Of a DNA stretch of 32,960 bases, positions 2,099 through 31,246 are shown piece by piece. Location of the stretch: assembly GCA_903934875.1 (NCBI GenBank), contig CAIZPP010000192.1:1-32960 (forward strand). The letters run 5' to 3'. A model generated the notes under the pieces. That model had not been told where the DNA came from. It was given only the letters and a program-made list of their open reading frames with translations, and did no database searches. How positions within the stretch are numbered: position 1 is the first letter of the stretch; every line of letters begins with the position of its first letter. The position numbers were made by a program, and so were the translations under genes. This DNA is from an uncultured Methylococcaceae bacterium. Lineage in GTDB: Bacteria; Pseudomonadota; Gammaproteobacteria; Methylococcales; Methylococcaceae.

Positions 2099-2348
2099 TA
2101 CAGCGTTTTCATCTTTAAAATATATCTTCAATGCCTTCGCCAATGTCGTGAGAGACCTCCAATTTTGGCACAGAACCGCCAATATAAAGGCCAAGCTAGT
2201 GCTCGTTCCCATTGGGAGCGCCAAGCCCCAGCTTGGCGAAGGTATTGATATCTTAATAATGGGTATTCAGTTAACCCTATATTTTAACCGAATATCCCGC
2301 GCTAGCATAGCCACTATCAAGTAACTCTCTGATGTTGAAATCGCTGTA
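2099..2348 (+). repeat. Inverted-repeat element, type A, copy 1 (interrupted)
   Basis: End 1 (TACAGCGTTTTCATCTTTAA) begins at 2099 and end 2 (GATGTTGAAATCGCTGTA) finishes at 2348. Removing the nested insertion at 2129-2247 and one copy of its 7-bp flank leaves about 124 bp, the size of the other type A copies. The central palindrome (GGTATTCAGTTAACC against a degenerate partner ending GAATATCCC) is retained. End 2 lies inside the 3' end of ubiC and supplies its last codons; end 1 stops 12 bp before the ubiA start. Confidence 0.85.
2129..2247. mobile_element. Nested 119-bp palindromic insertion in repeat copy 1
   Basis: The segment starts CAATGCCTTCGCCAA and ends TTGGCGAAGGTATTG, an inverted repeat of 15 bp with one mismatch. 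It is flanked on both sides by ATATCTT (2122-2128 and 2248-2254), which looks like a 7-bp target duplication. Inside is a hairpin-forming stretch (GCCAAGCT..AGCTTGGCG) related to the larger hairpin at 17081-17131. It has no ORF, so it is a small non-autonomous element. Confidence 0.65.
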
Positions 2349-2958
2349 AAACGGAGGGCAGAAAAAACTCGCACACCGATAAAGAGACTTTACCAACTTG
2401 GTATAGCGAGCGCCTGCCCCAGACCGGTGATTCAATAGCGCAAGCCCTACTGATGGAATGCCGCCAATCCGCCGGGCTTGCCCTGGCCACTTCCAGATGG
2501 CTGCGCTGCAAGCCCCGGTAGGCAAACAGCAACTCCCCCAAGGGGCGGTCGCCCAAATGGGCCAAACCGCTGTATACGCCGCGCAGGGTACGCGGGGGTA
2601 TCACCGTGCGCGCCAATACCAGCGGCCTGCCGTGGCAATGCAGCAAGACTTCCCTGACCAAGGCCCGACGGCGCGGCGGCAATTCCAATAAGGCGGCTTC
2701 GTCGGCAAACGGCCTGACCCAGCGCTGCCCCAATAAGCGGACGCCAAACCCCGCCCCGACGGATTTCCGCAGGCGGGCGGTCAATGAACCCGGTTCCTCA
2801 AGCCATGATCTGATGGCTACAGGGGCCGACACTCTGCTGGCACTGGCTGGCCGCCAAACCGGTTGGCGTTGAAATAATTGACTACGACGGTGCAAACCGG
2901 AAGTTCCAATAACGGTTGATAGGCCACGAGGGGTTAGCGGCGAATGATACCGCAGCAA
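2317..2958 (-). CDS. ubiC: Chorismate pyruvate-lyase UbiC
   Basis: Converts chorismate to 4-hydroxybenzoate and pyruvate, the first committed step of ubiquinone synthesis; cytoplasmic. Family landmarks are the REVLL..GRPLVLARTVIP segment (about residues 92-115), LGDRPLGELLF, VWGRRSLY near residue 178, and a C-terminal CEFFLP holding the expected catalytic Glu. The product is about 213 aa, longer than the roughly 165-aa E. coli protein. Part of the excess is N-terminal, and a start further downstream is possible. At the C-terminus, after FLPSVL, the last nine residues (QRFQHQRVT) and the stop are read from the end of the inverted-repeat element. It is followed by ubiA on the same strand. Confidence 0.88.
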   Translation of the reverse strand: MLRYHSPLTPRGLSTVIGTSGLHRRSQLFQRQPVWRPASASRVSAPVAIRSWLEEPGSLTARLRKSVGAGFGVRLLGQRWVRPFADEAALLELPPRRRALVREVLLHCHGRPLVLARTVIPPRTLRGVYSGLAHLGDRPLGELLFAYRGLQRSHLEVARASPADWRHSISRACAIESPVWGRRSLYQVGKVSLSVCEFFLPSVLQRFQHQRVT

Positions 2959-3009
2959 GCATTGTTACGCGAAAAAACTTTATATGAGCCAGGACGATTA
3001 AAAGCGCTG

Positions 3010-3068
3010 CGGGAGTGCAAGGCCTGCCTTGCAAGGCATCAAAAGGCAAGGCAGGTCTTGCACTCCCG
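3010..3068. repeat. Long hairpin, 23-bp arms
   Basis: Arms 3010-3032 and 3046-3068 (CGGGAGTGCAAGGCCTGCC.. and its complement) pair over 23 bp with a single mismatch around a 13-nt loop. No T-tract follows, so it is not a standard terminator. It sits in the divergent ubiC-pncC spacer and may be a small palindromic repeat. Confidence 0.7.
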
Positions 3069-3122
3069 GTATAAATTCAAAGACTGCCCGGTTCGTTTGC
3101 ATCACTTTTCATCGTACCAGCC

Positions 3123-3152
3123 TTGACACAATGACCAGATGGGTGCTATGTA
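3123..3152 (+). promoter_or_regulatory. Candidate sigma-70 promoter for pncC-thpR
   Basis: A perfect TTGACA (3123-3128) is followed after 18 bp by TATGTA (3147-3152), about 70 bp upstream of pncC. The -10 box is weak, so this is a guess from motif spacing. Confidence 0.35.
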
Positions 3153-3221
3153 CAGGCCAGCAAAGGGTTTTGGCACCCATGCGTAACATCAGTGACCAGA
3201 CGCTTATTGGGGAGGTAAATG

Positions 3222-3713
3222 ATGACCGGCGAAGATGAAATGGCTACCTTGGCAAAACAAGCCGGCTCGGTACTTAACCAGCATGGACATAAACTGGTTG
3301 CGGCGGAGTCCTGCACCGGCGGTTGGGTTTGCCAGGCTGTGACCGAGATTGCGGGCAGTTCCGCTTGGTTTGACCGTGGTTTTGTGACCTACACCAACTT
3401 AGCCAAACAAGAATTGCTGGGCGTGCCGGCATCCGTGCTGGACCGATGCGGCGCGGTCAGCGAAGAAACAGTGTGCGCCATGACTGCGGGCGCGTTGCGC
3501 AATAGCCAGGCCGACTGTGCCTTGGCGGTCAGCGGCATCGCCGGACCTTCGGGCGCAACGCCGGGAAAGCCGGTGGGTACAGTATGGTTTGCATGGCAAC
3601 GGCGTGACGGTGGCTGCGTCACATGCAAAAAGCAATTCGACGGGGACCGGCGCTCGGTGCGCGGGCAAGCGGTAGCCGTTGCCCTGCAAGGCATAGTGGA
3701 CCTGTATGGATAA
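3222..3713 (+). CDS. pncC: Nicotinamide-nucleotide amidase PncC (CinA C-terminal domain)
   Basis: Stand-alone CinA C-terminal-type protein that deamidates NMN to nicotinate mononucleotide in pyridine-nucleotide recycling. Diagnostic segments are AAESCTGGWV (about residues 27-36), the GFVTYTNLAKQELLGVP region, GAVSEETVCAM, and SGIAGPSGATPGKPVGTVWFAW, which carries the family's Gly-rich signature. It is about 163 aa, the usual size of the single-domain enzyme. Shine-Dalgarno GGAGG (3211-3215) lies 6 nt before the ATG at 3222; the ATG at 3219 is the alternative. The stop overlaps the start of thpR by 8 nt, so the two are translationally coupled. In many Gammaproteobacteria this gene precedes recA, which is absent here. 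Confidence 0.92.
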   Translation: MTGEDEMATLAKQAGSVLNQHGHKLVAAESCTGGWVCQAVTEIAGSSAWFDRGFVTYTNLAKQELLGVPASVLDRCGAVSEETVCAMTAGALRNSQADCALAVSGIAGPSGATPGKPVGTVWFAWQRRDGGCVTCKKQFDGDRRSVRGQAVAVALQGIVDLYG

Positions 3714-4233
3714 AGCGGCACAACGGCTGTTTTTTGCCCTTTGGCCGGAAGACTCCTGCCGCACAGCATTGGCCGCTGCCATGAGGCATGTGCAAGAGAA
3801 AATACCGGCACGCTGGATCAAGCCTGAAAATCTGCACATTACCCTGGCTTTCCTCGGCAACGTGGATGCAGGACAGCGGGGCAGGCTGGCAAGCCTGGCG
3901 GGGGATATCCAAGCGCAAGCGGGTGAATTCCTGCTCGACCGCATCGAACATTGGCGCAAGCCACAGGTGCTTTGCCTTACGCCAAGCACAGCGGCGCCTA
4001 TGCTGGATCAACTCGCCGCCGACCTGACCATCCGGCTCAAAGATGCGGGTTACCAGCTGGACCAGCGGCCTTTTCGCGCCCATCTGACCCTAGCCCGGAA
4101 GGCGACCAGCCTACCTGAGGGGATAAGGCTGGAGAGACCCATAGTTTGGCAATCCACCGCCTTTGTTTTGGTCGAATCGACCCGCAATGGTCAAGGCTCC
4201 GATTATACCGTGCTAGAGTCATGGCCCTTATAG
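3706..4233 (+). CDS. thpR: RNA 2',3'-cyclic phosphodiesterase ThpR (LigT family)
   Basis: 2H-phosphoesterase family protein that opens 2',3'-cyclic phosphates on RNA ends. The two catalytic HxTx motifs are visible: HITL at about residues 44-47 (ENLHITLAFLG) and HLTL at 126-129 (FRAHLTLARK). The start MDKAAQRLFFALWP matches the family's N-terminal RLFxAL strand. The 175-aa length is normal. It overlaps pncC by 8 nt and is probably co-transcribed with it. Nothing unusual is seen in the catalytic motifs. After its stop there are about 300 bp with no supported gene before the next repeat element. Confidence 0.92.
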   Translation: MDKAAQRLFFALWPEDSCRTALAAAMRHVQEKIPARWIKPENLHITLAFLGNVDAGQRGRLASLAGDIQAQAGEFLLDRIEHWRKPQVLCLTPSTAAPMLDQLAADLTIRLKDAGYQLDQRPFRAHLTLARKATSLPEGIRLERPIVWQSTAFVLVESTRNGQGSDYTVLESWPL

Positions 4234-4529
4234 ACAATACGCTAGAATGGTTTATCATGGATATGGAACGATGCCCCTACGATATTTCCGCACAGCAGAC
4301 AATGGCTTTGTTTTTGCTTAAATACCAACGCTTTTCAAGGGATATTTTTATGTTACCCGCATGTATTCGCTACCTACAGCACTTCATATGTATCCGGGCT
4401 TCTCACAGGTGCAGTGTGTATTAATACAATCGCAAGAAGTAGACCCTATCAGAAACCGCCCTTTGGTTAAGCATTGGTGCGGATGCTGGTTAGGTTTATG
4501 ATAATGTCTAGTCTAGGTTTGTATTTATG
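4234..4529. other. Non-coding spacer after thpR
   Basis: I see no supported gene here. A 55-codon frame from ATG 4257 lacks a Shine-Dalgarno and has no recognisable family features. The last bases (TTTATG before the next element) match the bases preceding the repeat copy at 7661. Confidence 0.5.
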
Positions 4530-4653
4530 TACAGCGTTTTTATCTTCACAAATGAAAATAATAAAGGACACTCAATTAAACCATCCTGTGTGTGAATTAC
4601 TTTGCAAAATGATATAACTCAACAAGTAACTCTTCGATATTAAAAACACTGTA
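4530..4653 (+). repeat. Inverted-repeat element, type B, copy 1
   Basis: Complete 124-bp copy with ends TACAGCGTTTTTATCTTC and CGATATTAAAAACACTGTA, flanked by TA-type ends. Its core contains CTTTGCAAAATGATATAAC and matches the reverse complement of the copy at 21829-21950, not the type A palindromic core. End 2 finishes 21 bp before the start of the receiver gene at 4675, so any promoter or 5' UTR of the following chemosensory operon lies in or next to the element. Confidence 0.85.
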
Positions 4654-4674
4654 AATCATATTGACACAAAACCC

Positions 4675-5043
4675 ATGACGAGCCCAAAAACAGTTTTGAT
4701 TGTAGACGACAGCAGACTCTCTAGGATGATCATTAAAGCTCTAATTTTGGAAATGCATCCCAATTGGATTTTATTGGAAACGACCAATGCGGAACAGACG
4801 ATTGCATTGTTGGATTCGATTGCGCAGCCTGATCTGATCACTTTGGATATTAACATGCCCGGCATGAACGGTTTGTCCCTAGCCGCCATCATCAGAGAAA
4901 CTTGGGATGCGGTTCCTATCGCCGTCATCACGGCCAACGTACAGGAGAGCATCGTAAAAAAATGCGCCGAACTCCAGGTTGGCTTTATTGAAAAACCAAT
5001 TGATGCTAATTCAGTCACAAAAGCACTCAGATTTATGGAATAA
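4675..5043 (+). CDS. CheY-like single-domain response regulator
   Basis: Stand-alone receiver domain of 122 aa. Acidic pocket VDDS at about residues 10-13, phospho-acceptor Asp58 in DLITLDINMPGMNG, a Thr in VITAN near residue 87 and Lys in FIEKPID near residue 105 are all present, so it should be phosphorylatable. No output domain follows. It is the first gene of a plus-strand run (receiver, CheC-like, GGDEF, CheR) and is followed after 4 nt by the CheC-like gene. The natural reading is a CheY-type output protein phosphorylated by the CheA at 9.4-11.3 kb and dephosphorylated by its CheC neighbour. Whether it binds a flagellar motor or another target cannot be told from sequence. Confidence 0.9.
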   Translation: MTSPKTVLIVDDSRLSRMIIKALILEMHPNWILLETTNAEQTIALLDSIAQPDLITLDINMPGMNGLSLAAIIRETWDAVPIAVITANVQESIVKKCAELQVGFIEKPIDANSVTKALRFME

Positions 5044-5047
5044 ATCC

Positions 5048-5659
5048 ATGTTTTTATTGAATGAGTTACAACAAGACAGTCTGTTGGAAATTTTCAACAT
5101 CGGGGTAGGCAAGGCCGCTTCAGCCTTAAGCAAAATGACTTCGGAAGAAATATTACTCAGTGTGCCAACCCTCCAATTCCTGGAGTGGGATGAAGCCAAG
5201 CAACATTTGCCGGGTAACGGAAAAATCATTTGCGGAGTCTCTCAGCGGTTTGATGGTCCATTTACCACCGAGGCCGTCTTAATGTTCCCGGAAGAGAAAT
5301 CCCTTGAATTCATACGTTATATTTTACGTGTGGATTCGCTGCTTGAGCAACTCACCGAAATGGAGCAGGAAGCGCTTTGCGAGATCGGTAACATCATACT
5401 GAACGCCTGCATGGCACCGATAGCTGATATTTTCTCAGCCGAATTTCATGCTACTATGCCGGAATTCAGGATGGGCACTAGTTCGCATGTCTTAAACATG
5501 GATGTGCCGCAGCCAAACCGCGTAATCATGTTGATGTTAGTCCAACTACAAATGGAAAAAAGCAAAATTGATGGCTATCTTGCATTTCTATCCGTTCTGC
5601 CTGATATGCAACGATTTACTGCCAATATAGACCGCTTCATTTCTGAACTGCCAAAATAG
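5048..5659 (+). CDS. CheC-like chemotaxis phosphatase
   Basis: 203-aa protein of the CheC/CheX/FliY phosphatase family, which dephosphorylates CheY-P. The active-site signature [D/S]-x3-E-x2-N-x22-P is met exactly in the first half by D10, E14, N17 and P40. It recurs in the second half with E112, N115 and P138, though the leading acidic/Ser position is a Glu. Two such half-sites are typical of CheC. The start ATG 5048 is chosen over an upstream in-frame ATG at 4979 because the latter would read through the receiver gene in another frame. It lies 4 nt after the receiver stop, so the pair is tightly coupled. No cheD is seen nearby. Confidence 0.85.
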   Translation: MFLLNELQQDSLLEIFNIGVGKAASALSKMTSEEILLSVPTLQFLEWDEAKQHLPGNGKIICGVSQRFDGPFTTEAVLMFPEEKSLEFIRYILRVDSLLEQLTEMEQEALCEIGNIILNACMAPIADIFSAEFHATMPEFRMGTSSHVLNMDVPQPNRVIMLMLVQLQMEKSKIDGYLAFLSVLPDMQRFTANIDRFISELPK

Positions 5660-5682
5660 ACTAGCCTAATGGTGAACTTGGG

Positions 5683-6747
5683 ATGGTGAGCTTAGGTTCA
5701 ATTTTCGACAAGAGTTTTGAAAACCCCGGATTGCACTTACCTGCCTTGGTCGTACGGGAAGCGCAGATGGGACTGATGGTTCTCGATCATGACGGAACAG
5801 TCGTTTTATTCAACGATTGGCTGGCAAAAGCGGCCAGCCTACCCGTGGAATATGCGTTAGGGAATAACTTGCTGCAAGTGTTTCCGGGACTCAAGGGCAG
5901 CCGCTTGCAAAATGCGGTGGAAACCTGTTTGCAAAGGGGTTTCCCAGCCTTGCTCTCACAATCGTTGAATCGATCTCCTTTCCCACTATTTGTCAGCGAG
6001 GAAGAACACAAGAAGGGTGTCCTCATGGAACAATTGATCCATGTGATCCCCCTAGGGGGCGGCGAATCCCAGCGCTACTGCTTAATTCAAATAACTAATG
6101 TCAGCGAGGCGGTAAGGCGTGAAAAAATCCTGCTTGACCAGGCAAAGGAATTAAAACGTAATCTGATTACGGACGGGATGACCGGCGTTTACAGCCGCCG
6201 CTATTGGGAAGAAAAAAGTTTGATCGAATTCCGCAAAGCCAGGCGCGATTGCTCGCCGGTGTCGGTGATGATGCTGGATGTCGATTTGTTCAAAAGTTTC
6301 AATGATGCTTACGGACACCCGGAAGGTGACCGTTGCCTCACCCGCGTCGCCAAAGCCGCCGCAAGCGCATTGAAACGCCCGCTCGATATCCTTGCACGCT
6401 ACGGCGGGGAGGAATTCGTGGCGCTGCTACCCGGAACCAATCTGGAAGGTGCCGCAGTTGTGGCGAAAAGAATTTTACAGTCCGTTGAAAATGCCCATAT
6501 CCCGCATGTAAAATCCAGCGTATCTCCTTATGTCACTGTGAGCATTGGTGTTTCTTGTGGGTTTCCGAGCGAGGGCGAATCCCAGGAAGCCATTTTATCC
6601 GAGGCTGACCAAGCTTTATACGCCGCAAAATATTTAGGCAGGAACCGGATAATTTTGTACAAGGAGAAAGGCTTTTTCACAACCGACAATATAAAAATAG
6701 ACGACTTTTTGCGGGATGATATCTGTGGAATTACCCATATTGTATAA
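5683..6747 (+). CDS. PAS-like plus GGDEF diguanylate cyclase
   Basis: 354-aa cytoplasmic protein. Residues about 20-145 read as a PAS-like sensor (GLMVLDHDGTVVLFNDWLAK), followed by a short coiled linker and a GGDEF domain (about 158-325). The catalytic motif is intact as GGEEF at 241-245, with DxDxFKxFND upstream. An inhibitory I-site RxxD is present (RPLD, 232-235) five residues before GGEEF. It should therefore make c-di-GMP with product feedback. There is no membrane segment and no receiver domain, so its link to the chemosensory genes is by operon position: it follows the CheC-like gene by 23 nt and overlaps cheR by 32 nt. The PAS ligand is unknown. Confidence 0.9.
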   Translation: MVSLGSIFDKSFENPGLHLPALVVREAQMGLMVLDHDGTVVLFNDWLAKAASLPVEYALGNNLLQVFPGLKGSRLQNAVETCLQRGFPALLSQSLNRSPFPLFVSEEEHKKGVLMEQLIHVIPLGGGESQRYCLIQITNVSEAVRREKILLDQAKELKRNLITDGMTGVYSRRYWEEKSLIEFRKARRDCSPVSVMMLDVDLFKSFNDAYGHPEGDRCLTRVAKAAASALKRPLDILARYGGEEFVALLPGTNLEGAAVVAKRILQSVENAHIPHVKSSVSPYVTVSIGVSCGFPSEGESQEAILSEADQALYAAKYLGRNRIILYKEKGFFTTDNIKIDDFLRDDICGITHIV

Positions 6748-7558
6748 ACATGAGTTTGATTTTACAGAGAACGACTTCCGATTAATACGAAAATTAATTT
6801 ACGATCATGCTGGCATTTCTTTGAACGATGCCAAACAGAATCTAGTATATAGCCGACTGAGTCGGCGTCTACGTGCCAACAATCTCAAAAACTTCTCCGA
6901 TTATCTTAAGTTCCTTGCGACAAACCATGCCGAATGGCAGCTTTTTATCAACGCACTCACCACGAACCGCACCGCCTTCTTCCGTGAGCCACACCACTTT
7001 CCAATATTAGCTGAACACATTAGAAAGCTAGGCACGAAGGAAATGATAACGCTCTGGTCTTGCGCCGCATCAACTGGCGAAGAGCCCTATTCCATAGCCA
7101 TGACAATGGTCAAGCTCTTTGGTAGCTACACCCCCCCAGTTCGGATAATTGCCACTGATATTGATACGGAAGTGCTTGAGTCAGCAAAAGCCGGCATTTA
7201 CAGCATAGACAAGGTTGATATGTTTACTCCCAGCCAACTCAAACCATTTTTTCTAAAAGGCAAGGGTAATAATGAAGGCTTAGTCAAAATTCGTAATGAA
7301 TTGAAAAATATGGTCACGTTCCGTCAGTTGAACCTGTTAAGTGAAGAATGGCCGGTAAGGGGGCCTTTTTCGGCGATATTTTGCCGAAATGTGATGATTT
7401 ATTTAGACCAACAGACAAAACTTAAAATTCTAGATCGGTTTGCACCATTATTGACACCCCAAGGTTTGTTGTTTGTCGGCCACTCGGAGAATATTGTTTT
7501 GCTGACAAACCGATTCAAGATGCATAGTAGGACGGTATACCAACTACAGCGTTTTTAA
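6716..7558 (+). CDS. cheR: Chemoreceptor methyltransferase CheR
   Basis: SAM-dependent methyltransferase that methylates glutamates on chemoreceptors. The N-terminal all-alpha domain (LIYDHAGISLNDAKQNLVYSRLSRRLR) is followed by TTNRTAFFREPHHF. The SAM site is LWSCAASTGEEPYSIAM (about residues 112-128), then IIATDIDTEVLESAKAGIYS and FCRNVMIYLD. The 280-aa length is normal. It starts inside the 3' end of the GGDEF gene (GTG 6725 is an alternative start). The last codons Q-R-F-stop are formed by the end of a repeat element (CAGCGTTTTTAA), so the natural C-terminus has been replaced or trimmed. Its probable partner is the receptor at 11.3-13.6 kb, which ends in NWTEF. Confidence 0.95.
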   Translation: MISVELPILYKHEFDFTENDFRLIRKLIYDHAGISLNDAKQNLVYSRLSRRLRANNLKNFSDYLKFLATNHAEWQLFINALTTNRTAFFREPHHFPILAEHIRKLGTKEMITLWSCAASTGEEPYSIAMTMVKLFGSYTPPVRIIATDIDTEVLESAKAGIYSIDKVDMFTPSQLKPFFLKGKGNNEGLVKIRNELKNMVTFRQLNLLSEEWPVRGPFSAIFCRNVMIYLDQQTKLKILDRFAPLLTPQGLLFVGHSENIVLLTNRFKMHSRTVYQLQRF

Positions 7559-7603
7559 TATCGAAGGGTTACTTGTTGAGCTATATCATTTTGCAAAGCA
7601 ATT
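7545..7603 (-). repeat. Inverted-repeat element, type B half-copy (end 2 only)
   Basis: Starts TACAGCGTTTTTAATATCGA at 7545 inside the 3' end of cheR and matches the type B copy at 21829 up to GCAAAGCAATTCACAT near 7603, where similarity stops. End 1 is missing. It faces away from the complete type A copy at 7661-7783, giving two elements with end 2 outward in the cheR-cheB gap. Confidence 0.75.
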
Positions 7604-7610
7604 CACATGG

Positions 7611-7639
7611 TTGGCATACATTTCTGAAAAGAGTATGTG
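7611..7639 (+). promoter_or_regulatory. Promoter-like box pair upstream of cheB
   Basis: TTGGCA (7611-7616), 17 bp, TATGTG (7634-7639). The same block with a perfect TTGACA recurs at 22078-22106, also directly before a type A repeat copy. The -10 box is poor. The conservation across two loci is the main reason to list it. Confidence 0.35.
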
Positions 7640-7660
7640 AAGCATGGGGATATCTTTATG

Positions 7661-7783
7661 TACAGCATTTTCATCTTTAAAATTTACCTAATAAAGGATA
7701 TTCAGATAACGTTTCAATTTAACTGAATATCTTGCCCTTCCATTCCAGCTATCAAGTAACTCTTTGATGTTGAAAATGCTGTA
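7661..7783 (+). repeat. Inverted-repeat element, type A, copy 2
   Basis: Complete 123-bp copy: TACAGCATTTTCATCTTTAA at the left, GATGTTGAAAATGCTGTA at the right. The central palindrome is GGATATTCAGATAAC paired with TTAACTGAATATC. The left and right TIRs share a matching change (GC to GCA..TGC), so the ends remain complementary. The element stops one base before the cheB ATG. Confidence 0.88.
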
Positions 7784-7784
7784 A

Positions 7785-8849
7785 ATGATGAAAATAAAAG
7801 TATTGGTAGTAGATGACTCCGCGTTGATACGCAGCGTCATGAAGGAGATCATTAACAGCCAGCCCGACATGGAAATGGTCGGGGCCGCACCGGACCCTTT
7901 AGTCGCCAGGGATCTTATCAAACAATTGAACCCCGATGTCTTGACCTTGGACGTGGAGATGCCAAAAATGGATGGTCTGGAATTTCTCGAAAAACTAATG
8001 CGCCTTAGGCCAATGCCAGTTCTAATGGTTTCGTCTCTTACCGGGAAAGAATCGGAGGCAACTTTGCGCGCACTGGAATTAGGCGCTGTCGACTTTGTCA
8101 CCAAGCCAAAGCTTGGCATACAAAGTGGCATGTTGGAAGATGGCAATATAATCGCTGATAAAATCCGCTTGGCAGCCAGCGCAAAAATCGAACGCCAAAA
8201 ACTGCAAGCAAGCGATTCTATGCGCTACCTAAGGAATTCGCTGCCTCCGCTACGAAACAAAATAGTTAGTAGCAAAAACCTTATTGCCATTGGCGCATCG
8301 ACGGGCGGCACCAAAGCGATCAAGAACTTTCTGAGCCGCATGCCTAGGGACTGCCCTGGCATACTGATAGCCCAGCATATGCCCGAAGGATTTACCCGCT
8401 CTTTTGCGCAACATCTTTCCAGCACCTGTGAAATTTCAGTGAAAGAAGCTGAAGACGGGGAGCTTATTTTGCCGGGCGCGGCCTATATTGCGCCGGGTGA
8501 CCGCCATCTGTTACTGACCCGAATAGGGAACCATTACCTAACGAGATTGGAGGCCGGCCCTCCTGTCAATCACCACCGCCCTTCTGTGGATGCGCTGTTT
8601 AGCTCTGTTGCCACCCATGCAGGAAGCAACGCCGCAGGAATAATCATGACCGGCATGGGCAAAGATGGGGCATTAGGGCTGCTTGAAATGAAAAATGCCG
8701 GTGCGTTCAATCTTGCCCAAGATGAAGCCAGTTGCACCATCTATGGCATGCCCAAGGAGGCAGTGGCAGTGGGTGCCGTGCATGAAATTGCACCGCTCGA
8801 CGAGTTGGCCTACAAGGTATTGAATTATCTTGCCACCCGGACAGGCTAG
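7785..8849 (+). CDS. cheB: Protein-glutamate methylesterase CheB
   Basis: Two-domain adaptation enzyme that removes methyl groups from, and deamidates, chemoreceptors. The receiver domain has VDDSALIRS, phospho-Asp56 ([12 protein letters not shown]) and Lys in VTKPK. The C-terminal esterase carries the catalytic triad Ser172 (GASTGGT), His198 (AQHMPEGFT) and Asp294 (MTGMGKDGA). At 354 aa it is full length. ATG at 7785 is one base after the end of a type A repeat element, and no clear Shine-Dalgarno lies upstream other than the element's own bases; ATG 7788 is an alternative. It follows cheR on the same strand but is separated from it by 226 bp of repeat sequence. Its stop is only 2 bp from the stop of the convergent cheW. 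Confidence 0.95.
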
Positions 8850-8851
8850 GC

Positions 8852-9376
8852 CTAACCTGATGTTTCATCAACCTGATCCATCAGTTCCATCTCGCTACTG
8901 GTCATTAGCCTGTCGACATTGACCAAGATTATCATGCGCTCACCAATCGAACCCAAGCCAATCAGGTATTCTGGCTTAAGGTTGATACTGCAATTTGGAA
9001 AACTTTGAATTTGTCTGGCCGCAAGCGTTATCACATCAGATACAGAACTGACCACTATACCCACTAGGCGATTATTTATATTAAGTATGATAACGGTAGT
9101 GAGAAGATCATAGGTAGGTATGCCCAGCAGAAATTTTATACGTAAATCGACAATTGGCACAATTAACCCGCGAAGGTTTGATAAGCCCTTGATGAATTCT
9201 GGGGCACCTGGGACCCTAGTAATGTGATCGTATCTACGGATTTCTTGGACCTTTAGTATTTCTACACCATACTCCTCGCTGCCTAACATGAATGTGAGGA
9301 ATTCTTTACCATCGGCACCAACATCATCACCATCGCCAAAATTACTTACTAAATTCTCTTCAGAATGTGGATTCAT
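8852..9376 (-). CDS. cheW: CheW-like coupling protein (cheW1)
   Basis: Single CheW domain of 174 aa with an extra acidic N-terminal stretch of about 22 residues. Family segments are FLTFMLGSEEYGVEILKVQEIRR, the receptor-contact [30 protein letters not shown], and GIVVSSVSDVI. CheW links CheA to receptors. It is the last gene of the minus-strand operon cheW2-mcp-cheA-cheW1. Between cheA and this gene only 3 bp remain after the cheA stop. The cheA tail in that gap is made by a half repeat element that ends right at this start codon, so translational coupling to cheA is likely. Which of the two CheW copies serves which receptor is not evident. Confidence 0.9.
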   Translation of the reverse strand: MNPHSEENLVSNFGDGDDVGADGKEFLTFMLGSEEYGVEILKVQEIRRYDHITRVPGAPEFIKGLSNLRGLIVPIVDLRIKFLLGIPTYDLLTTVIILNINNRLVGIVVSSVSDVITLAARQIQSFPNCSINLKPEYLIGLGSIGERMIILVNVDRLMTSSEMELMDQVDETSG

Positions 9377-9377
9377 A

Positions 9378-9411
9378 TATCAAGTAACTCTTTGATGTTG
9401 TAAACGCTGCA
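9378..9411 (+). repeat. Inverted-repeat element, type A half-copy (end 2 only)
   Basis: TATCAAGTAACTCTTTGATG followed by TTGTAAACGCTGCA, a match to end 2 of type A with small changes (terminal TA to CA). No end 1 or core is present. It sits wholly within the last codons of cheA and abuts the cheW1 start. Confidence 0.75.
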
Positions 9412-11344: not shown

Positions 11345-11347
11345 TGC

Positions 11348-14074: not shown

Positions 14075-14150
14075 TACAGCGTTTTTAATATCGAAGAGTT
14101 ACTTGTTGAGTTATATCATTTTGCAAAGCACAGACATACAGGATGGTTTG
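14075..14150 (-). repeat. Inverted-repeat element, type B half-copy (end 2 and part of core)
   Basis: Begins TACAGCGTTTTTAATATCGA and follows the type B copy at 21829 through CATTTTGCAAAGCA and CATACAGGATGGTTTGATT, then loses similarity. End 1 is absent. End 2 is 4 bp from the cheW2 start codon, so it forms the 5' region of the cheW2-mcp-cheA-cheW1 operon. Confidence 0.75.
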
Positions 14151-14160
14151 ATTGGGTCGA

Positions 14161-20844: not shown

Positions 20845-20965
20845 TACAGCGTTTTCATCTTTAACATAAAACTAAAAAGGGATATTCAGTATGCCTACCA
20901 TTTAAACGTATATCCAGCGCCACCCACTAGCTATCAAGTAACTCTTCAATGTTGAAAACGCTGTA
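20845..20965 (+). repeat. Inverted-repeat element, type A, copy 3
   Basis: Complete 121-bp copy from TACAGCGTTTTCATCTTTAA to TGTTGAAAACGCTGTA with 11-bp perfect terminal arms. The central palindrome is degenerate (GGGATATTCAG against GTATATCC). It begins 14 bp after the kinase stop. Its final A is the first base of the PP2C start codon. Confidence 0.88.
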
Positions 20966-21906
20966 TGTCGGATAGTCTGCGAGTTGGAAACGCCCAAATT
21001 GTCGGGGCAAGAACAGACCAACAGGATGCTTTCGGCTTTTCCGACAAGGATGATGCATACTTCGTCCGTCACGGCGGAGTGCTGGCAGTAATCGCAGATG
21101 GAATGGGGGGTCATGCCTACGGAGGTGAAGCCAGTCGCATTGCGGTAAAGGCATTTTTGCTTGATTATATGGCGAAATCCGAACGCGTTTCCATACCCGA
21201 TGCGCTGTATCAGGCATTTTATGCAGCAAACCATGCAGTTTGCGCATTCGCGGAAGAAGCCGGCGAAGCAGGCAATTGCGGAACCACGTTTGTTGCGGCG
21301 GTGGTCCATCTGGCAAGCCGCTCGTTACATTGGATCAGCACAGGGGATAGCCGCATTTTATTATTTCGCAAGTGCCAGTGGGTTCAAATCACGGCGGATT
21401 CCAATTATGCCAACCGGCTGCTTAACCATCACATCCACGGGGTGGACTTGCCATACCATTGGAAAAATGACATCCATCTTCAGGGCTTGACCAGTTTTTT
21501 AGGGCTACAGGAAATTGAAGAAATCGACCGGTCCCTCTGCGGACTCAGACTCCACCCGCAAGATTGGCTAGTGCTTTGCACCGATGGCATCTATAACACA
21601 CTGGCCGAAAATGAAATTTTGGCATTGCTACATGGCGACCCCAATACCGCTTGTGAAATGATTGTGCAAAAGGTTACTGCAAAAGGACTGGCCCATCAGG
21701 ACAATGCGACGGTGGCAACTATTGCCTGCGATTTCAACCCTGCTCATGATGGACGCGGCAAATGGCGGACAACGCCATTTGTTAAACTAGGATTCGGATT
21801 GTTCCTTATTAGTCTAGTTTTGATTGCTTACAGCGTTTTTAATATCGAAGAGTTACTTGTTTGGTTATATCATTTTGCAAAGCAATTCGCATACAGGATG
21901 GTTTGA
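20965..21906 (+). CDS. PP2C-family Ser/Thr protein phosphatase
   Basis: 313 aa. PP2C motifs in order: GARTDQQDAFG (metal Asp21), VIADGMGGHAYGGEAS (Asp45), NCGTTFVAAVV, STGDSRILLF, LVLCTDGIYNTL and DNATVATI, so the catalytic metal sites appear intact. A single C-terminal membrane helix (LGFGLFLISLVLIA, about 273-288) anchors it, followed by a tail that starts YSVFNIEELL and runs to the stop. The tail is read from a type B repeat element (21829-21950). The start codon is formed at the last base of the upstream type A element and has no clear Shine-Dalgarno. It should reverse the neighbouring kinase's phosphorylation and, unlike many such enzymes, is tethered to the membrane. Confidence 0.9.
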   Translation: MSDSLRVGNAQIVGARTDQQDAFGFSDKDDAYFVRHGGVLAVIADGMGGHAYGGEASRIAVKAFLLDYMAKSERVSIPDALYQAFYAANHAVCAFAEEAGEAGNCGTTFVAAVVHLASRSLHWISTGDSRILLFRKCQWVQITADSNYANRLLNHHIHGVDLPYHWKNDIHLQGLTSFLGLQEIEEIDRSLCGLRLHPQDWLVLCTDGIYNTLAENEILALLHGDPNTACEMIVQKVTAKGLAHQDNATVATIACDFNPAHDGRGKWRTTPFVKLGFGLFLISLVLIAYSVFNIEELLVWLYHFAKQFAYRMV

Positions 21907-21950
21907 TTTCGTGTCCTTTATTATTTTTCTTTGTTAAGAAAAACGCTGTA
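21829..21950 (-). repeat. Inverted-repeat element, type B, copy 2
   Basis: Complete 122-bp copy from TACAGCGTTTTTAATATCGA to TTAAGAAAAACGCTGTA. It is the reverse orientation of the copy at 4530-4653 and matches it along most of its length. End 2 is inside the PP2C gene, giving the last 26 codons and stop; end 1 is in the spacer. Confidence 0.87.
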
Positions 21951-22077
21951 CATAAATGCAAAGCGGGACTCCCCGCGATGTTGTGGCACATAGACAGTTG
22001 CGCCTTGGTCATCGTTCGGCCCAATTGCTAGGGCTAGTAGTTTGCGCTCCACAAGCGGTATGCGTTTAAATAATTAG

Positions 22078-22106
22078 TTGACATACATTTATAAAAAAGG
22101 TATGTA
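22078..22106 (+). promoter_or_regulatory. Candidate promoter upstream of soxCD
   Basis: Perfect TTGACA (22078-22083), 17-bp AT-rich spacer, then TATGTA (22101-22106). The block to 22127 resembles 7611-7660 base for base at many positions (CATACATTT..GTATGT.AAGCATGGG), and both precede a type A repeat. The rest of the spacer 21951-22077 has no gene. Confidence 0.4.
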
Positions 22107-22127
22107 AAGCATGGGAAAATCTTTATC

Positions 22128-22250
22128 TACAGCATTTTGATCTTTAAAATATCCCTAATAAAGGATATTCAGTTAACCATTCAGGTTAACCCAATAGCCT
22201 GCGTTTACATACCAACTATCGAGTAACTATTGGATGTAGAAAATACTGTA
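22128..22250 (+). repeat. Inverted-repeat element, type A, copy 4
   Basis: Complete 123-bp copy: TACAGCATTTTGATCTTTAA at left, GGATGTAGAAAATACTGTA at right. The central palindrome GGATATTCAGTTAACC with GGTTAACCCAATA is strong. The ends have drifted (one mismatch between arms). End 2 is 37 bp before a short leader ORF and 90 bp before soxC. Confidence 0.85.
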
Positions 22251-26260: not shown

Positions 26261-26285
26261 TCAATAGCACCATCAAGTCCACCCC

Positions 26286-26316: not shown

Positions 26317-26331
26317 CAGGCCCGGAGGCTG

Positions 26332-26402: not shown

Positions 26403-26441
26403 TCCCTTGTCTTTACATCAACTTAAAGGCTTTTTAACCGA

Positions 26442-26843
26442 TCAGATCCAATCCCTTTTGATATGTTTAGGTACTCGCTTTGATTGGGAATATGAAACCT
26501 GTATTCGCAAGAGAAGCGAATTCGAAGCTGGGGGATATTTAATCCTAAAAAGTCCAGATGCAAGGCAGTCGTGAATGTGCTCTAAGCTTTCAGTACGGCA
26601 ATGATTGAAGGCAATTATGGATTCATGCTTTACGAAAGGATGATCGCCACTGGTGAGCGGGCAGGTCATTTCGCATCTTGGGAACTGACTTACGACTGGG
26701 GCCAGCAGTGCCTTTGGCTTTCCATTAATTTCCTTTATGTCAAATATTACAACAAAGAGATGGTCGCCGATTGACCCACTGGGAATAAGAATGGTTGTTC
26801 CTGCCGTTATAATCGGCTCCCCAACACAAGTTTTCACTGTCAT
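26442..26843 (-). CDS. Probable toxin partner of the Panacea protein
   Basis: 133 aa, located 11 nt downstream of the Panacea gene on the same strand. It has a compact beta-rich look: TTILIPSG, then DHLFVVIFDI, ALLAPVVS, and a conserved-looking TCPLTSGDHPFVKHESIIAFN block (about 60-80), followed by a helical/strand tail. This pattern (IPSG..DHLFVV..GDHPFVKH) recalls small SH3-like PemK/MazF-type proteins, but I cannot confirm the family. No catalytic residue can be assigned with certainty. Function as a toxin rests on its place next to an antitoxin-type Panacea protein, which is inference. Start ATG 26843 has a weak ribosome site. Confidence 0.6.
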   Translation of the reverse strand: MTVKTCVGEPIITAGTTILIPSGSIGDHLFVVIFDIKEINGKPKALLAPVVSQFPRCEMTCPLTSGDHPFVKHESIIAFNHCRTESLEHIHDCLASGLFRIKYPPASNSLLLRIQVSYSQSKRVPKHIKRDWI

Positions 26844-26854
26844 GCTTTTTAAGC

Positions 26855-27454
26855 TTATTCTGAATGCGCATAAAATGCTAATATTTGCTTAGTTTGCGCT
26901 TCAATAGATTCCTCCTCAAAACCAACGTACTTCAGGATATCCTCAATAGCGATCCACTTCGTACCTTCGCCTTTCTTCCAAGTCCATTCTGGGAAATAGG
27001 CGGTGTTATGCAAATATTTTTCTAATCGCGTTGCCGACCAATGACCATATTTATTCCAAATACCCTCAAGCAACTCTATCTCGGATTCACTGAACCGATC
27101 CAAATCATCTAATGACTGATATTTACAGTTAGATGCCAAGTGCACATATTGATGTCGATGACCCCCATCAACTGTAATTAAATCACCCCAGAAATTTGGC
27201 GGAAAAGAGCGACTTTTACCCTCTATCAAGGCTAGGGTCTCTGACGTTACAGGACCATGTTGTAAAGCTCCCAATCGGTCGCCAAGCATTGGTTCGCCAA
27301 ATTTCTCATACGAGGCTCGCTCAGCTAGGTAAAGCCATTTAATCAGACGCAATTTAGTTACGTTCATCCGGCCTAAAGTTGATTTTTTCATAAAGAAAAA
27401 AACCAACTGGCCGGCCTTTTTTACGTCAAAATGATTAATATTAAGCTGAGACAT
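26855..27454 (-). CDS. Panacea-domain (SocA/DUF4065-like) putative antitoxin
   Basis: 199 aa from ATG 27454 (MSQLNINHFDVKKAGQ). The Panacea signature is clear: VTKLRLIKWLYLAERASYEK, then GDRLGALQHGPVTSETLALI (about residues 32-75), and the SESEIELLEGIWNKYG stretch further on. Panacea domains neutralise diverse toxins in two-gene systems, so the small gene 11 nt downstream is the expected partner. The open frame extends to 27625, but the added residues come from the intron and repeat scraps upstream and are not used. Order here is antitoxin first. Alternative roles of this domain (phage-linked adaptors) cannot be excluded. Confidence 0.8.
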   Translation of the reverse strand: MSQLNINHFDVKKAGQLVFFFMKKSTLGRMNVTKLRLIKWLYLAERASYEKFGEPMLGDRLGALQHGPVTSETLALIEGKSRSFPPNFWGDLITVDGGHRHQYVHLASNCKYQSLDDLDRFSESEIELLEGIWNKYGHWSATRLEKYLHNTAYFPEWTWKKGEGTKWIAIEDILKYVGFEEESIEAQTKQILAFYAHSE

Positions 27455-27520
27455 GATCGGATATTTGTTTTGCGGTGCATCTGTATATTTTAACATGACT
27501 TTTTGGAGCTTGCCTCTTAA

Positions 27521-27589
27521 GGTAGGAGCCTCTGTAGCCAAGAAGCCCCCGCACAGACCTGGACGTGCAGTTTTTCCGCATCCGGTTCC
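27521..27589 (-). mobile_element. Degenerate 3' end of a group II intron (domains V and VI)
   Basis: On the minus strand, AACCGGATGCGG, AAAAA, CTGCACGTCC then GGTCTGTGCGGGGGC resembles domain V, including the two-base CG bulge, followed by a domain VI-like hairpin ending CTACC. No reverse transcriptase frame is present upstream, and several stem pairs are broken, so this is a remnant. Confidence 0.5.
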
Positions 27590-27662
27590 TCGCTTGTACT
27601 CGCTTTCCGCTTTCGCGTCGAGCAAAACTTTTGCTCGAATTGTAATCCCCCCCCATTGGATT

Positions 27663-27855
27663 TGCCGACGAAGGAGGCGTATCAGCCGTTTTGTGTTTCA
27701 AAGGTCTCTCGTTAATCCAGCTTCGTGTTCGGCGAGCGCCGCATTGATAAGGAAATCTAGTTTTCCAGAATTCGAATCGGCTTCCAGTTTTTTATCCCAA
27801 CGTGCTTGGTCGAATTCAACAAACCAATACCTCAGCGCATCCTATGGCCCTATTG
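27663..27855. repeat. Dispersed repeat split by a gene fragment
   Basis: TGCCGACGAAGGAGGCGTATC (first 20 bases; 27663 on) and ACCTCAGCGCATCCTATGGC (27830 on) match the two halves of the repeat at 26332-26402. The intervening bases are instead the coding scrap at 27698-27841. Confidence 0.5.
27698..27841 (-). pseudogene. C-terminal scrap of a small conserved protein
   Basis: Minus-strand frame without a start codon reads YWFVEFDQARWDKKLEADSN, then SGKLDFLINAALAEHEAGLT and RDL before TGA (27698-27700). The pattern (WD..IEAD..GKLD.L...AL.E...G...DL) resembles the C-terminus of small proteins often seen in antitoxin-like loci, but I cannot name it. A TAG lies just upstream in frame. The fragment is embedded within a dispersed repeat. 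Confidence 0.45.
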
Positions 27856-27901
27856 CGCCTTTGTATGCGACTTACCGCGTTACTTAACTGCCCCCTTTGA
27901 T

Positions 27902-28789
27902 TCAGATTGTTTCTTGTTTTATGTTTTCCAACTCACGCCGTAAGTTGGTTTCAAGACGCGGAAACACCAATAGTTCGCCTTTTAATTTGTCAGCAGAATT
28001 TTTAGCATCAAGTAACTTAGGCTCAACCGAATCACTAAGCCATGAATTTACCTTAGTTCTTTGTCCCGGAACATTTCTGGCGGCAGCTCTAACAGTGTCA
28101 ATCCGGTTCATTTGTTCTTGGATTGAATTTGAAAATGACTCAATTTCATTAATTAGTAAAGTACGGGTATTTTCAAACGATTTATAAGCCCCGTAAATTG
28201 AAATAGAGTCAGGACGTACATCTATATCAAGCCCCTCAAGTTTTCTTACCGTGCCATCTGTACCTGTTACATTTATCAGATGATTGACTGTTCCCATTAG
28301 TGCCTTGATTGCAACTCGTTGACGATTTACGCAATCAAGCAAACCTGCCGTGTTTTGTATCGTTTGCAAATGAATATTAAGATTTGAGGCATGTAGATTG
28401 ATGTTATTTGTGAATCGCTCAAATGTTGATGCTGAAACTATCAATTCCATTATGTCAATTTGCAATTGAATTTGACGATGTTCTAATTCATTTTTGTTTT
28501 GAATTGAGGAAAGTTTCTTTCGGTTATCGTCAATATCTGAGAGCAGTTCTGCAATATCGCTTTTATTTAAATTTTCGCCTCCCATTATGTCGGGACGCTC
28601 ATTAGTTTTACTTGTTTCAGTTGGCGGAGATTGGGGGGTATCGTTTTCGTAGATAATTTTTCTTCCTTGTAAAAGAGCGTCAACAACTGATGCGGCGGTA
28701 GATAAAACATATTCAGCTCCCTTTACAATATTTTTTGCAACAGTAATTGCACTACTAACCCATCCACCAATAGACGATAAAATCCCCAT
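27902..28789 (-). CDS. Unrecognised helical protein with amphipathic N-terminus
   Basis: 295 aa with no family that I recognise. Residues 1-45 (MGILSSIGGWVSSAITVAKN and on) are small, hydrophobic and amphipathic, like a membrane-active or membrane-resting helix. A polar linker rich in Ser/Thr/Pro follows, then mostly helical, Asn/Leu/Glu-rich sequence to the end, likely coiled coils. There is no signal peptide and no catalytic motif. It is AT-rich compared with the core genes, suggesting transfer. It sits downstream of another unrecognised gene on the same strand, with a structured palindrome between them. A pore-forming or immunity-type role is conceivable, without direct evidence. Confidence 0.7.
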   Translation of the reverse strand: MGILSSIGGWVSSAITVAKNIVKGAEYVLSTAASVVDALLQGRKIIYENDTPQSPPTETSKTNERPDIMGGENLNKSDIAELLSDIDDNRKKLSSIQNKNELEHRQIQLQIDIMELIVSASTFERFTNNINLHASNLNIHLQTIQNTAGLLDCVNRQRVAIKALMGTVNHLINVTGTDGTVRKLEGLDIDVRPDSISIYGAYKSFENTRTLLINEIESFSNSIQEQMNRIDTVRAAARNVPGQRTKVNSWLSDSVEPKLLDAKNSADKLKGELLVFPRLETNLRRELENIKQETI

Positions 28790-28853
28790 AATCCATACTC
28801 CTAAAATTAACGTTCAAATTATCATTTACTGAAAATACCACTTAGTTCATTAC

Positions 28854-28929
28854 ATAAGCCCAAGCAACCCCATTTGCACGAACGTGGGGCTAAGGCGTGA
28901 CCCCTTTAGCGCAGGGTTATCGGGCTTAT
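28854..28929. repeat. Structured intergenic palindrome
   Basis: ATAAGCCC (28854-28861) pairs exactly with GGGCTTAT (28922-28929); further inside, AACCC pairs with GGGTT and CCCC with GGGG. The outer arm overlaps the stop codon of the upstream gene. Its shape recalls an integron attC site, but the required G-TTRRRY core is not exact. Confidence 0.45.
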
Positions 28930-29327
28930 TCTTCAAGGATAACAAATTCATAGTCATTTGGTAATAGTGATGAATAATCTAAACTTTCCAGTGTAAGACT
29001 TGGTGGGATTGAAAAGCCTAAACTCTGGAAATATTCAGCATGAGAAAGAGGGATATTTTTTCCAGATGAACCATCGTGGCCGCTCCCATCAAGATTGACG
29101 GAATACAATTCCTTGCCACTCCCAGAGGGTTTAGCATAAACATGAGCATGCTTCTGCGTCATTGTGCTCGTGTTGTGAGGATCAACTCTATAAGAACATT
29201 TTGTTCCAGGAATGGTTTTATATGTTAAGTGTTCAAGAGCAAGAGACAACCTTGCCAACTTTTCTTGAGTGGTATCTTCATCTCGGACTAAATCAAACAA
29301 TTTTTTTCGCATTTTGTAGTTTTCCAA
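28926..29327 (-). CDS. Unrecognised small protein with His/Gly-rich core
   Basis: 133 aa. The N-terminal 45 residues are helical and charged. The middle carries TQKHAHVYAKPSGSGKELYS followed by VNLDGSGHDGSSG, and the C-terminal part ends with an acidic tail (YEFVILEE). The HAHVYAK..GKELYSVN.DGSGHDG pattern looks like a conserved small domain, but I cannot assign it a function. ATG 29327 or 29312 (MRKKLFDL) may be used. There is no signal peptide. It is AT-rich and lies in the accessory island upstream of the helical protein gene; the two may be a functional pair, which is inference from orientation only. Confidence 0.65.
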   Translation of the reverse strand: MENYKMRKKLFDLVRDEDTTQEKLARLSLALEHLTYKTIPGTKCSYRVDPHNTSTMTQKHAHVYAKPSGSGKELYSVNLDGSGHDGSSGKNIPLSHAEYFQSLGFSIPPSLTLESLDYSSLLPNDYEFVILEE

Positions 29328-29347
29328 AATCTATGGAGTGGGAATAG

Positions 29348-29736
29348 CCCTTTCTTCAGCTTGCCCAACTTTGTATTCGGCCTTAGAAACGAAGCCTATA
29401 CAGAAAAATCAATAAATCTGACGTTTTCTTTCGCGTCAGCGCTGAAATCTAATCCGTCAAGCCGTAGACTCCCAATTGGGAAACACCGAACCGCCAAGAT
29501 AAAACCCAGCGGCCCGCCTGCTTGCAAGCCAAGCTAATACGGCTAAATTTTACCCAATCCACATCTGGAAATACAACATTTTCTTATGGTAAAAGTTGAT
29601 TTTTCAGGGTTTCGGTAATATTACCCAAAATGGCTGATACAATAGCTTTTGGCACGAAAGTAGCTTAGGTAAAAAACCGTCGCGTAACAGCGGTTGGAAA
29701 AACACGGCAAGCTTGATGTCACAAGAATGCCCAATA
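29348..29736. other. Spacer before the IS1-interrupted repeat
   Basis: No supported gene. It contains a perfect 12-bp palindrome GGTAATATTACC at 29614-29625 and nearby TTTACCC/GGGT motifs, which could be an operator for a lost or unrecognised transcript. Confidence 0.35.
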
Positions 29737-29774
29737 TGCAGCGTTTTCATCTTTAGGTGATGGGTTTAATTGAT

Positions 29775-30260
29775 TTATAATACTTGAAAGCAGTATCTAT
29801 TGATAAACAATCCAATTACCGTATCGTGAAGCACTTCCGACTTTGAAAAGCAGATGGTTTTCCGCACCAGCCGCTTGATGCGGGTGCGCAGCGACAGGTT
29901 TTTGTTCTCTATCTTCTGGGTGTGGCGTTTGCCGACCACATGCTTTTCCTTGGGGATGAACACCGGGTAGCTGCCCCAGTCGTCCGTGTAATAGGTTCGG
30001 ATGTTGAAGGCTTTCAAGTTCGAGATCAGCCGACCGCAGACCTCGTCCTGCCGCCTCCCGAACACGAACGACAGGATGCACCCCGTTGCCGCGTCGATGG
30101 CATACCAGAGCCACCGCTGGTTCTTCTTGTTGCCGACGAAGCTCCATTGCTCGTCCGCTTGGGCATTCATAGGCGGATCAATGAGATGCCTTATTTCAAC
30201 ATCAATGTCGTGGCTACCCACGTAAGGGTTCACGGTGACCACCTCGGCGGACTTTTTTTT
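29775..30260 (-). CDS. insB: IS1 transposase, InsB part (translated by -1 frameshift)
   Basis: About 160 aa joined to InsA by slippage on A8 (30253-30260). It shows the DDE-type features of IS1: DEQWSFVGNKKNQRWLWYAI, TYYTDDWGSYPVFIP, and HVVGKRHTQKIENKNLSLRT with a following IKRL. There is no independent ribosome site, so the active transposase is the InsA-InsB fusion. The frame is intact to its stop close to the left inverted repeat. No disrupting stops or frameshifts are seen apart from the programmed one. Confidence 0.88.
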   Translation of the reverse strand, partial: KKKSAEVVTVNPYVGSHDIDVEIRHLIDPPMNAQADEQWSFVGNKKNQRWLWYAIDAATGCILSFVFGRRQDEVCGRLISNLKAFNIRTYYTDDWGSYPVFIPKEKHVVGKRHTQKIENKNLSLRTRIKRLVRKTICFSKSEVLHDTVIGLFINRYCFQVL

Positions 30261-30505
30261 AGCGTGGCGATGACCGTACCCTTGCCGATGCCCAAGACAC
30301 GGGCGGTGTCGCGGATGCCGCTGCCGTTCATGGCCATGTCCTCGATCTGGTCTTTGACGCCGGGTTCGTAGGCGCGGTAGACATAATCGGTTTTGAAGAT
30401 GCGCCCACAATCCTTGCACTTAAAGCGGGACTGGCCGCTTTGAGTGCCGTAGCGAACCACCGCCGTGCTGTTGCAATACTTGTAGGGAACAAGTTGATAT
30501 GCCAT
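30230..30505 (-). CDS. insA: IS1 InsA protein
   Basis: 91 aa. An N-terminal zinc-finger-like region (CNSTAVVRYGTQSGQSRFKC, then KDCGRIFKTDY) is followed by a helix-turn-helix segment MNGSGIRDTARVLGIGKGTV. InsA alone binds the inverted repeats and represses transposition; with frameshifting it is the DNA-binding half of the transposase. The frame ends SPPRWSP just after the A8 run. The start ATG 30505 is about 70 bp inside the right end of the element, as expected. Confidence 0.9.
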   Translation of the reverse strand: MAYQLVPYKYCNSTAVVRYGTQSGQSRFKCKDCGRIFKTDYVYRAYEPGVKDQIEDMAMNGSGIRDTARVLGIGKGTVIATLKKSPPRWSP

Positions 30506-30688
30506 ATTATTTGTAAAATTGAATAAATTTTGAGATACTGTTGATTATATCAATAAATCAATTAAACCCACCACCCATCTTTAAAATATACCTAAATAAT
30601 GGATATTCAGTTAACCCTTCGCGTTAACTGAATAACCTACCCTTTCATACAAGCTAGCTAGTAACTCTTTGATGTTGAAAACGCTGTG

Positions 30689-31246
30689 CTGCAACCAATC
30701 ACGAGACACATCGCCAAAGACAAGGAAAAATGGATTCAGCAGCGACGGCTTGGTGTTATACAACAAAGGTTTCCCGGATAAATTGACGACTCAGCCGCCG
30801 GCGGATTCGACGACGCACTGGGCGGCTGCCGTGTCCCACTCTGAAGTCGGACCAAGGCGCGGATAAAGATCGGACTCCCCTTCGGCGACGAAGCAAAACT
30901 TCAAGGAACTGCCGACCGACTTCATTTTGTAATCGCCTAGTCGCAGCAGATAAGACTTCACTTCCTCCGTCAGATGCGAGCGGCTGCCAACCACCACAGG
31001 GGGATGTGATGCCTGTGCGCGGGCGAAAATTTGCACAGGGCTTTCCTGTCCGACTGCTTTGTACGCACAGGAACCGGCAGTGGAAAAATAGCAAAGCTCG
31101 GTCACGGGGGCATAAACAACCCCCAAAACCGGGCGATGCTGATGGATCAAAGCGATGTTAACGGTAAATTCGCCGTCCCGTTTGACAAACTCCTTGGTTC
31201 CGTCTAAGGGATCAATCAACCAATACGTTTCCCATCGCCTGCGTTG
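30689..31246 (-). pseudogene. cysQ: cysQ pseudogene, 3'(2'),5'-bisphosphate nucleotidase
   Basis: Reads RRWETYWLIDPLDGTKEFVK at its 5' side, then EFTVNIALIHQHRPVLGVVYAP, SVGSSLKFCFVAEGESDLYP and TSEWDTAAAQCVVESAGG, all typical of CysQ, which hydrolyses PAP and PAPS in sulfate assimilation. It is broken in three ways: the N-terminal third is missing, replaced by palindromic repeats; an in-frame TGA interrupts it at 30791-30793; and homology continues past that stop (VVNLSGKPLLYNTKPSLLNP) to DWLQ, where the repeat element takes over. The metal-binding DPLDGT motif remains, but the first acidic metal ligand region is lost. A start codon at 31219 would give only a partial protein. Confidence 0.85.

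Follow-up and report, generated by a model that had tools for sequence, protein, structure and literature searches.

An abundant TA-inserting repeat with tips at gene boundaries in a lake Methylococcaceae bacterium

The analysed window (32,960 nucleotides; contig CAIZPP010000192.1 of assembly GCA_903934875.1) stems from an uncultured Methylococcaceae bacterium, a lake methane-eating organism, and harbors several copies of a short repeated element whose tips lie in or beside the ends of genes. In its full form, for which a 455-bp consensus was built from 16 full-length copies (11 from the host genome and five from a sister species), the element has two arms of ~122 bp each, B and A, on either side of a centre of ~210 bp. 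A tip sequence called end 2 forms both outer extremities, with ~31 bp of outward-facing terminal tip on each side; end 1 repeats this sequence, inverted, ~120 bp inward within the element. All ten end-2 tips listed for the window in the initial annotation were found. They belonged to eight elements: as end 2 closes the element off on both sides, two of the eight contribute two tips each.

As claimed initially, end 2 lay within the 3' ends of ubiC, cheR, cheA and a PP2C gene, and close to the starts of a receiver gene, cheB, a cheW gene and the PP2C gene. The A-type copy at 2099..2348 (plus strand; end 1 at 2099) matched the profile at 2252-2348 (profile positions 27-123), its arm being interrupted by another repeat (~2125-2250), and its tip at 2348 fell within the 3' end of ubiC (Chor_lyase domain). 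The copy at 4507..4653 (plus strand) comprised a B-type arm (4530-4653, profile match 1-123) and ~23 bases of centre, as its flank resembled the B-side centre; its tip at 4653 was located 21 bp upstream of the receiver ATG at 4675, a later start at 4726 being preferred by the gene caller. At 9376..9411 (plus strand, profile match positions 88-122) only a remnant tip was left: it contained the cheA stop codon, and the gene that follows (cheW domain) began at its other side. The B-type half-copy at 14075..14157 (minus strand; profile match and congener comparison) ended 4 bp upstream of the cheW gene start, and three congeners (G027, G028 and G029) displayed a TA 4 nt ahead of the same ATG.

Further on, a solo unit of 121 bp with unique DNA at both ends (20845..20965, plus strand, identified by profile match and flanks) overlapped the PP2C gene, the final A of its tip at 20965 doubling as the A of the ATG. 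The 422-bp element at 21829..22250 (plus strand, recognised by tip pairing) displayed two end-2 tips. Its left tip was located 78 bp past the end of the PP2C stop codon, in the gene's 3' part. The right tip had been placed 37 bp before a soxC leader, which held for a small upstream ATG only; the called start of the Mo-oxidoreductase gene was 90 bp away. Finally, an A-type arm without end 1 was located at 30576..30687 (plus strand, profile match 12-122), its tip ending in GTG and not in GTA.

Three half-copies had been proposed, of which those at 9378 and 14075 were retained. The tips at 7545 and 7783 form one element, and 7545 is therefore not a half-copy: it is the left tip of an internally shortened, two-tipped element of 239 bp (7545..7783, plus strand; tip pairing, domain search and congener comparison). 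This left tip was situated in the 3' end of cheR, which the element terminates with QRF, and the right tip 1 bp upstream of the cheB ATG. Congener G028 displayed the order cheR, cheD, cheB, and G027, G029 and G030 a gap of about equal size at this place. In the window cheD was missing between cheR and cheB, the only place searched for it, and this place was taken by the element. In a contig of the sister species (G025:C74, locus L232, 872-1899) the stretch matching cheR and cheB was also gone, and an A-arm copy matched there.

The exact end-2 pattern gave 148 matches in the 5.41-Mb host genome and none when reversed. Scanning 695,611 bp of host pieces with a weight matrix yielded 241 end-2 tips. 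Neighboring tips less than 700 bp apart were mostly outward-facing (minus then plus; 47 vs seven inward), with a peak of spacing at 450-470 bp (11 pairs), and the sister-species loci displayed 11 outward pairs at 430-566 bp and two inward pairs below 700 bp. Retrotransposition, suspected because 3' ends were constant and 5' ends variable, was abandoned in view of these outward pairs and the 455-bp form. The 241 tips were divided into 94 paired tips, 41 solo units measuring 120-127 bp (35 by a stricter rule), 28 tips with part of the centre, 60 truncated arms, 17 at contig edges and one other. With these 17 tips the repeat was present at many contig ends of the host genome, and it may break the assembly. 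TA was present at both tips by construction, and no longer duplication was seen over 145 sites; only one clean empty site was encountered. Three of four arms from the window folded better than shuffled sequences (z -3.0, -3.1 and -5.8), the fourth giving z -0.7. No Rfam match reached the gathering threshold over the whole window, and the element was considered non-coding from its short length alone.

Its affiliation came from the genus. DDE_3 family searches provided 25 loci, six of which displayed an end-2 tip at the 3' end of an IS630-type gene (L315, L320, L326, L331 and L335, all from sister species G025, and L314 from G028). In L315 the stop codon was located within the tip, and the 317-residue protein matched the IS630 family of NCBIfam (E=7e-52) and Pfam DDE_3 (E=2e-29). 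Locus L127 represented the opposite (left) end, where tip, A arm and leader precede a start codon at a distance of 253 bp from the tip; over the first 209 bases of L127, the match to the consensus A half was 75 %. No whole insertion sequence was found on a single contig among the loci scanned, and its length (~1.2 kb) could therefore only be inferred. Altogether it is well supported that the element, a miniature inverted-repeat transposable element (MITE) inserting at TA, derives from IS630 by internal deletion and is not autonomous. The sole DDE_3 match of the host genome, a 216-residue open frame (L111, G000:C238:2236-2571), had no tip nearby; no autonomous copy was found there, the search covering this transposase family only and not the gene content of the more widely spaced outward pairs (above 700 bp; three in the discovery pieces, two in the held-out ones and one in G025). 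Out of 38 Methylococcaceae genomes, three had the tip pattern, and these three belonged to one genus of seven genomes.

Distances from tips to genes were determined with a simple home-made gene caller in four sets: a first and a held-out set from the host genome, together covering 17 % of it, and two sets from sister species. Ten of the 328 host tips had no gene on the side considered and were dropped, leaving 318; in the second sister set, 30 of 53 tips were duplicates and were also dropped, leaving 23. The initial annotation had proposed a genome-wide comparison with intergenic TA sites. Of the host tips, 160/318 were found at most 9 bp from a gene boundary (119/235 in the first set and 41/83 in the held-out one), and so were 18/65 and 9/23 of the sister-species tips; the corresponding incidences among intergenic TA controls were 6.3, 6.4, 5.1 and 4.7 %, in the order of the sets. 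The boundary effect is real and goes beyond chance. Start-adjacent tips (-1 to 9 bp from the start codon) amounted to 64/318 and those 0-9 bp from a stop to 49 of 318. The starts were almost exclusively ATG (63, with one GTG), and in 14 of the 64 cases the last A of the tip was the A of the ATG. When the ribosome-site term was removed from the caller, 65 start-adjacent cases were obtained.

This proximity could also result from trimming, the element landing anywhere in a spacer and later deletions removing the DNA up to the next gene. The bare tip at 9376-9411 with almost no spacer where congeners have more, the missing cheD at 7545-7783 and the truncated arms at 60/241 tips are in line with such a history. 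However, untrimmed full and solo elements were also close to boundaries, and three congeners likewise had the TA of site 14075 at 4 nt from the ATG, so that trimming appears very improbable as the main cause.

A second MITE of the host genome served for comparison. From its 111 tips, 23 adjoining the present element and 15 without a gene were subtracted, leaving 73. Only one of these was start-adjacent, against the 64/318 given above (Fisher p=1.4e-5), and 21/73 were at most 9 bp from a boundary. Location at 3' ends is therefore partly general in this genome, and location at starts is special to the present element. For repeats R3 and R4, which are weak controls, distances were taken from a motif in place of a known end. 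The second MITE-like repeat displayed GCGTAACATCAGT ends and was often encountered beside truncated arms of the present element (as in C91_22000, near 6767, and C89_1, near 169).

The initial annotation also stressed that end 1 was lost and end 2 kept in incomplete copies, and read the difference as oriented insertion or selection for a signal in end 2. The one-sided loss was recovered in a sample consisting of the window and 20 stretches picked by contig number: after removal of four edge matches from 38, the remaining 34 included 15 full copies, 16 without end 1 but with end 2, none of the reverse type and three lacking both. Some of the 16 were copies interrupted by another repeat, such as 2252-2348. 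Over all 257 matches the non-edge counts were 94 vs seven, which is a biased figure because most matches were fetched by end 2. With end 2 closing off a larger element and end 1 repeated inside it, much of the asymmetry is that between terminus and interior.

Solo units (~122 bp) allowed a fair comparison, as both their ends are termini; units labelled 'SOLO?', with a centre-like flank end, were excluded (six, one, four and two in the four sets). End 2 was nearer to a boundary in 44 and end 1 in 17 of 63 units (Wilcoxon p=0.00017). Equal distances for both ends across the genome, the outcome that the initial annotation would have taken as a refutation, were not found. The bias persisted among host units (36 vs 14 of 52, p=0.001), units without repetitive flanks (30 vs 13 of 45, p=0.007) and the first host set (22 vs nine, p=0.004), the fourth set including two solo units only. 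Counts by set for end 2 vs end 1 were 10 vs one, five vs five and zero vs zero next to starts, and eight vs eight, seven vs four and four vs one next to stops. End 2 as a start-only signal was rejected, since the 10 vs one of the first set became five vs five in the held-out one. The residual asymmetry agrees with selection acting on a signal in end 2. The first interpretation is partly supported. Taken as a whole, the initial observation is partly confirmed: it holds and extends genome-wide, with a corrected geometry.

Read inward, the tip displayed an in-frame stop after 14 nt in B tips and 32 nt in A tips, and genes running into it used these short in-frame stops. Read outward, it provided an A-rich leader, and A tips carried an ATG within the tip itself. 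A Shine-Dalgarno 4-mer preceded only 3/64 start-adjacent genes (2/40 after joining the flanks, one of them without far flank), compared to 164/472 other genes and 15 % in shuffles. One operon could be compared with G028, whose three native junctions were read as ~6 bp, as an apparent overlap and as 20 bp; all three were occupied by an element in the host genome, where one gene now begins at the tip's ATG. Congener junctions for L039 yielded no useful orthologs. At L043 (4161) a gene N-terminus was seemingly exchanged for tip codons (MLKTLY...) relative to G028.

The insertion context was only weakly AT-rich (W-N-W-TA-W-N-W over 145 sites), so that a target motif at boundaries was rejected. With the element removed, spacers bearing it had a median length of 53 bp (n=107), close to the 45 bp of element-free spacers (n=518), the TA-weighted expectation being 245 bp. 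Insertions thus behaved as if every junction, not every TA, were equally likely, which together with the three occupied junctions of the above operon would suit insertion machinery favoring junctions through transcription, translation or DNA opening, and not through a motif. The weak context speaks against such a target choice, and site preference alone would not explain why, of the two ends of solo units, end 2 is the nearer; we consider target choice unlikely.

Similar spacer lengths, the location of 84/107 element-bearing spacers between same-direction genes and the proximity of the second MITE to gene 3' ends could reflect neutral filtering, in which an element with an inert tip inserts at random TA sites, is lost from genes and long promoter spacers and is tolerated in tight operon junctions. 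Yet in spacers of at least 60 bp, inserts were closer to the boundary than native TA sites (mean percentile 0.28, n=50, p=2e-5); insertion at -1 to 9 bp before a start should be harmful and is nevertheless displayed by 64/318 tips vs 1/73; and end 2 was closer than end 1 in solo units. Neutral filtering therefore seems a rather doubtful account, although less so than target choice.

The best reading, which draws on position and sequence, is that tips are kept as functional gene edges. The element would insert at TA and copies at gene junctions would persist; the inward reading of the tip would supply an early stop to the gene running in, the outward reading a start region to the next gene, and neighboring genes would for this reason stay expressed. 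We infer that the boundary pattern is mainly due to selection after insertion. The whole explanation, an IS630 MITE whose insertions are retained at junctions because the tip serves as a gene edge, is judged somewhat more probable than the contrary. A stronger version is possible and put forward tentatively: as a portable gene edge, the tip would carry both stop codons and a translation start region of its own, it would have displaced the native leader and ribosome site in dozens of genes (64 tips being start-adjacent in the 17 % of the genome covered), and at 14 of these it would have built the start codon from the insertion-site TA.

The two arms might differ in this respect. Among host tips adjacent to boundaries, A arms were distributed over 18 starts and 52 stops and B arms over 46 starts and 36 stops (p=0.0003); per element, the B arm pointed toward the start in 28 vs 13 cases (p=0.028), and in four vs four in sister species. 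The effect was absent in host solo and half copies (p=0.59 and 0.54) and present in truncated copies (p=0.04). The B arm may add a promoter via TGATATAAC, a motif match located 35 nt from the tip; TGNTATAA was present in 56/109 B arms, without a -35 box.

Several observations weigh against tips acting as gene edges. Start positions rest on a home-made gene caller. The second MITE also reached boundaries in 21/73 cases, mostly at gene 3' ends. Loss of the Shine-Dalgarno sequence may cost little, because its use is already weak genome-wide (164/472 vs 15 % shuffled). The solo-unit bias was not significant in the held-out host set (14 vs five, p=0.09) or in sister species (six vs three, p=0.30) taken alone, and the start asymmetry of the first set was not repeated in held-out copies. 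Sister species lacked arm polarity (A: two starts and 10 stops; B: six and eight; p=0.22). A promoter scan of 4400-8000 gave seven sites vs 6.9 in shuffles, with no outward B-arm promoter among them.

Bacterial MITEs are usually regarded as tolerated passengers of spacers. The present high-copy MITE occupies the exact position of translation start, mostly without a Shine-Dalgarno sequence, in operons with empty versions in sister species. If its tip starts translation, these copies represent a natural series of replaced gene leaders, which would be useful for studying the requirements of bacterial translation starts and the way transposons become parts of genes.

The initial statement that no comparable case had been described was too strong, as ERIC/MITEPlu5, BOX, RUP and Correia elements are precedents, ERIC-type, BOX and Correia elements having been published in or beside gene ends. 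A literature search on MITEs at start codons found no statement of such placement among the records listed, MITEAba12 (PMC6382973) being left aside. Correia elements of Neisseria are described as abundant MITEs, mostly located just upstream of genes and with reported outward promoters (review PMC10969869); those promoters were tested, in contrast to the motif displayed here. BOX of Streptococcus pneumoniae reportedly lends 36 coding sequences their stop codon and, at three loci, also provides a start codon (PMC3049150). It differs from the present element in being a modular repeat tied to another insertion sequence, and the starts it supplies are described as lacking known proteins. RUP, from the same species, is a MITE with TA target thought to be mobilised by an IS630 transposase; its density is given as highest 50-150 bp from genes (PMC3049150), unlike the peak at or below 9 bp found here. 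Also similar in description is ERIC (RU-1, MITEPlu5), an IS630-related enterobacterial MITE of ~123-127 bp with TA at both ends, IS630-type termini and hundreds of copies, some of which have joined the 3' ends of genes that lost their native stop codon (PMC6267812, PMC2759123, PMC2229807). The present element resembles it in solo-unit size, TA ends, IS630-type termini, copy number and 3'-end fusions, and differs from it by its 455-bp two-armed form and by start adjacency at 64/318 tips.

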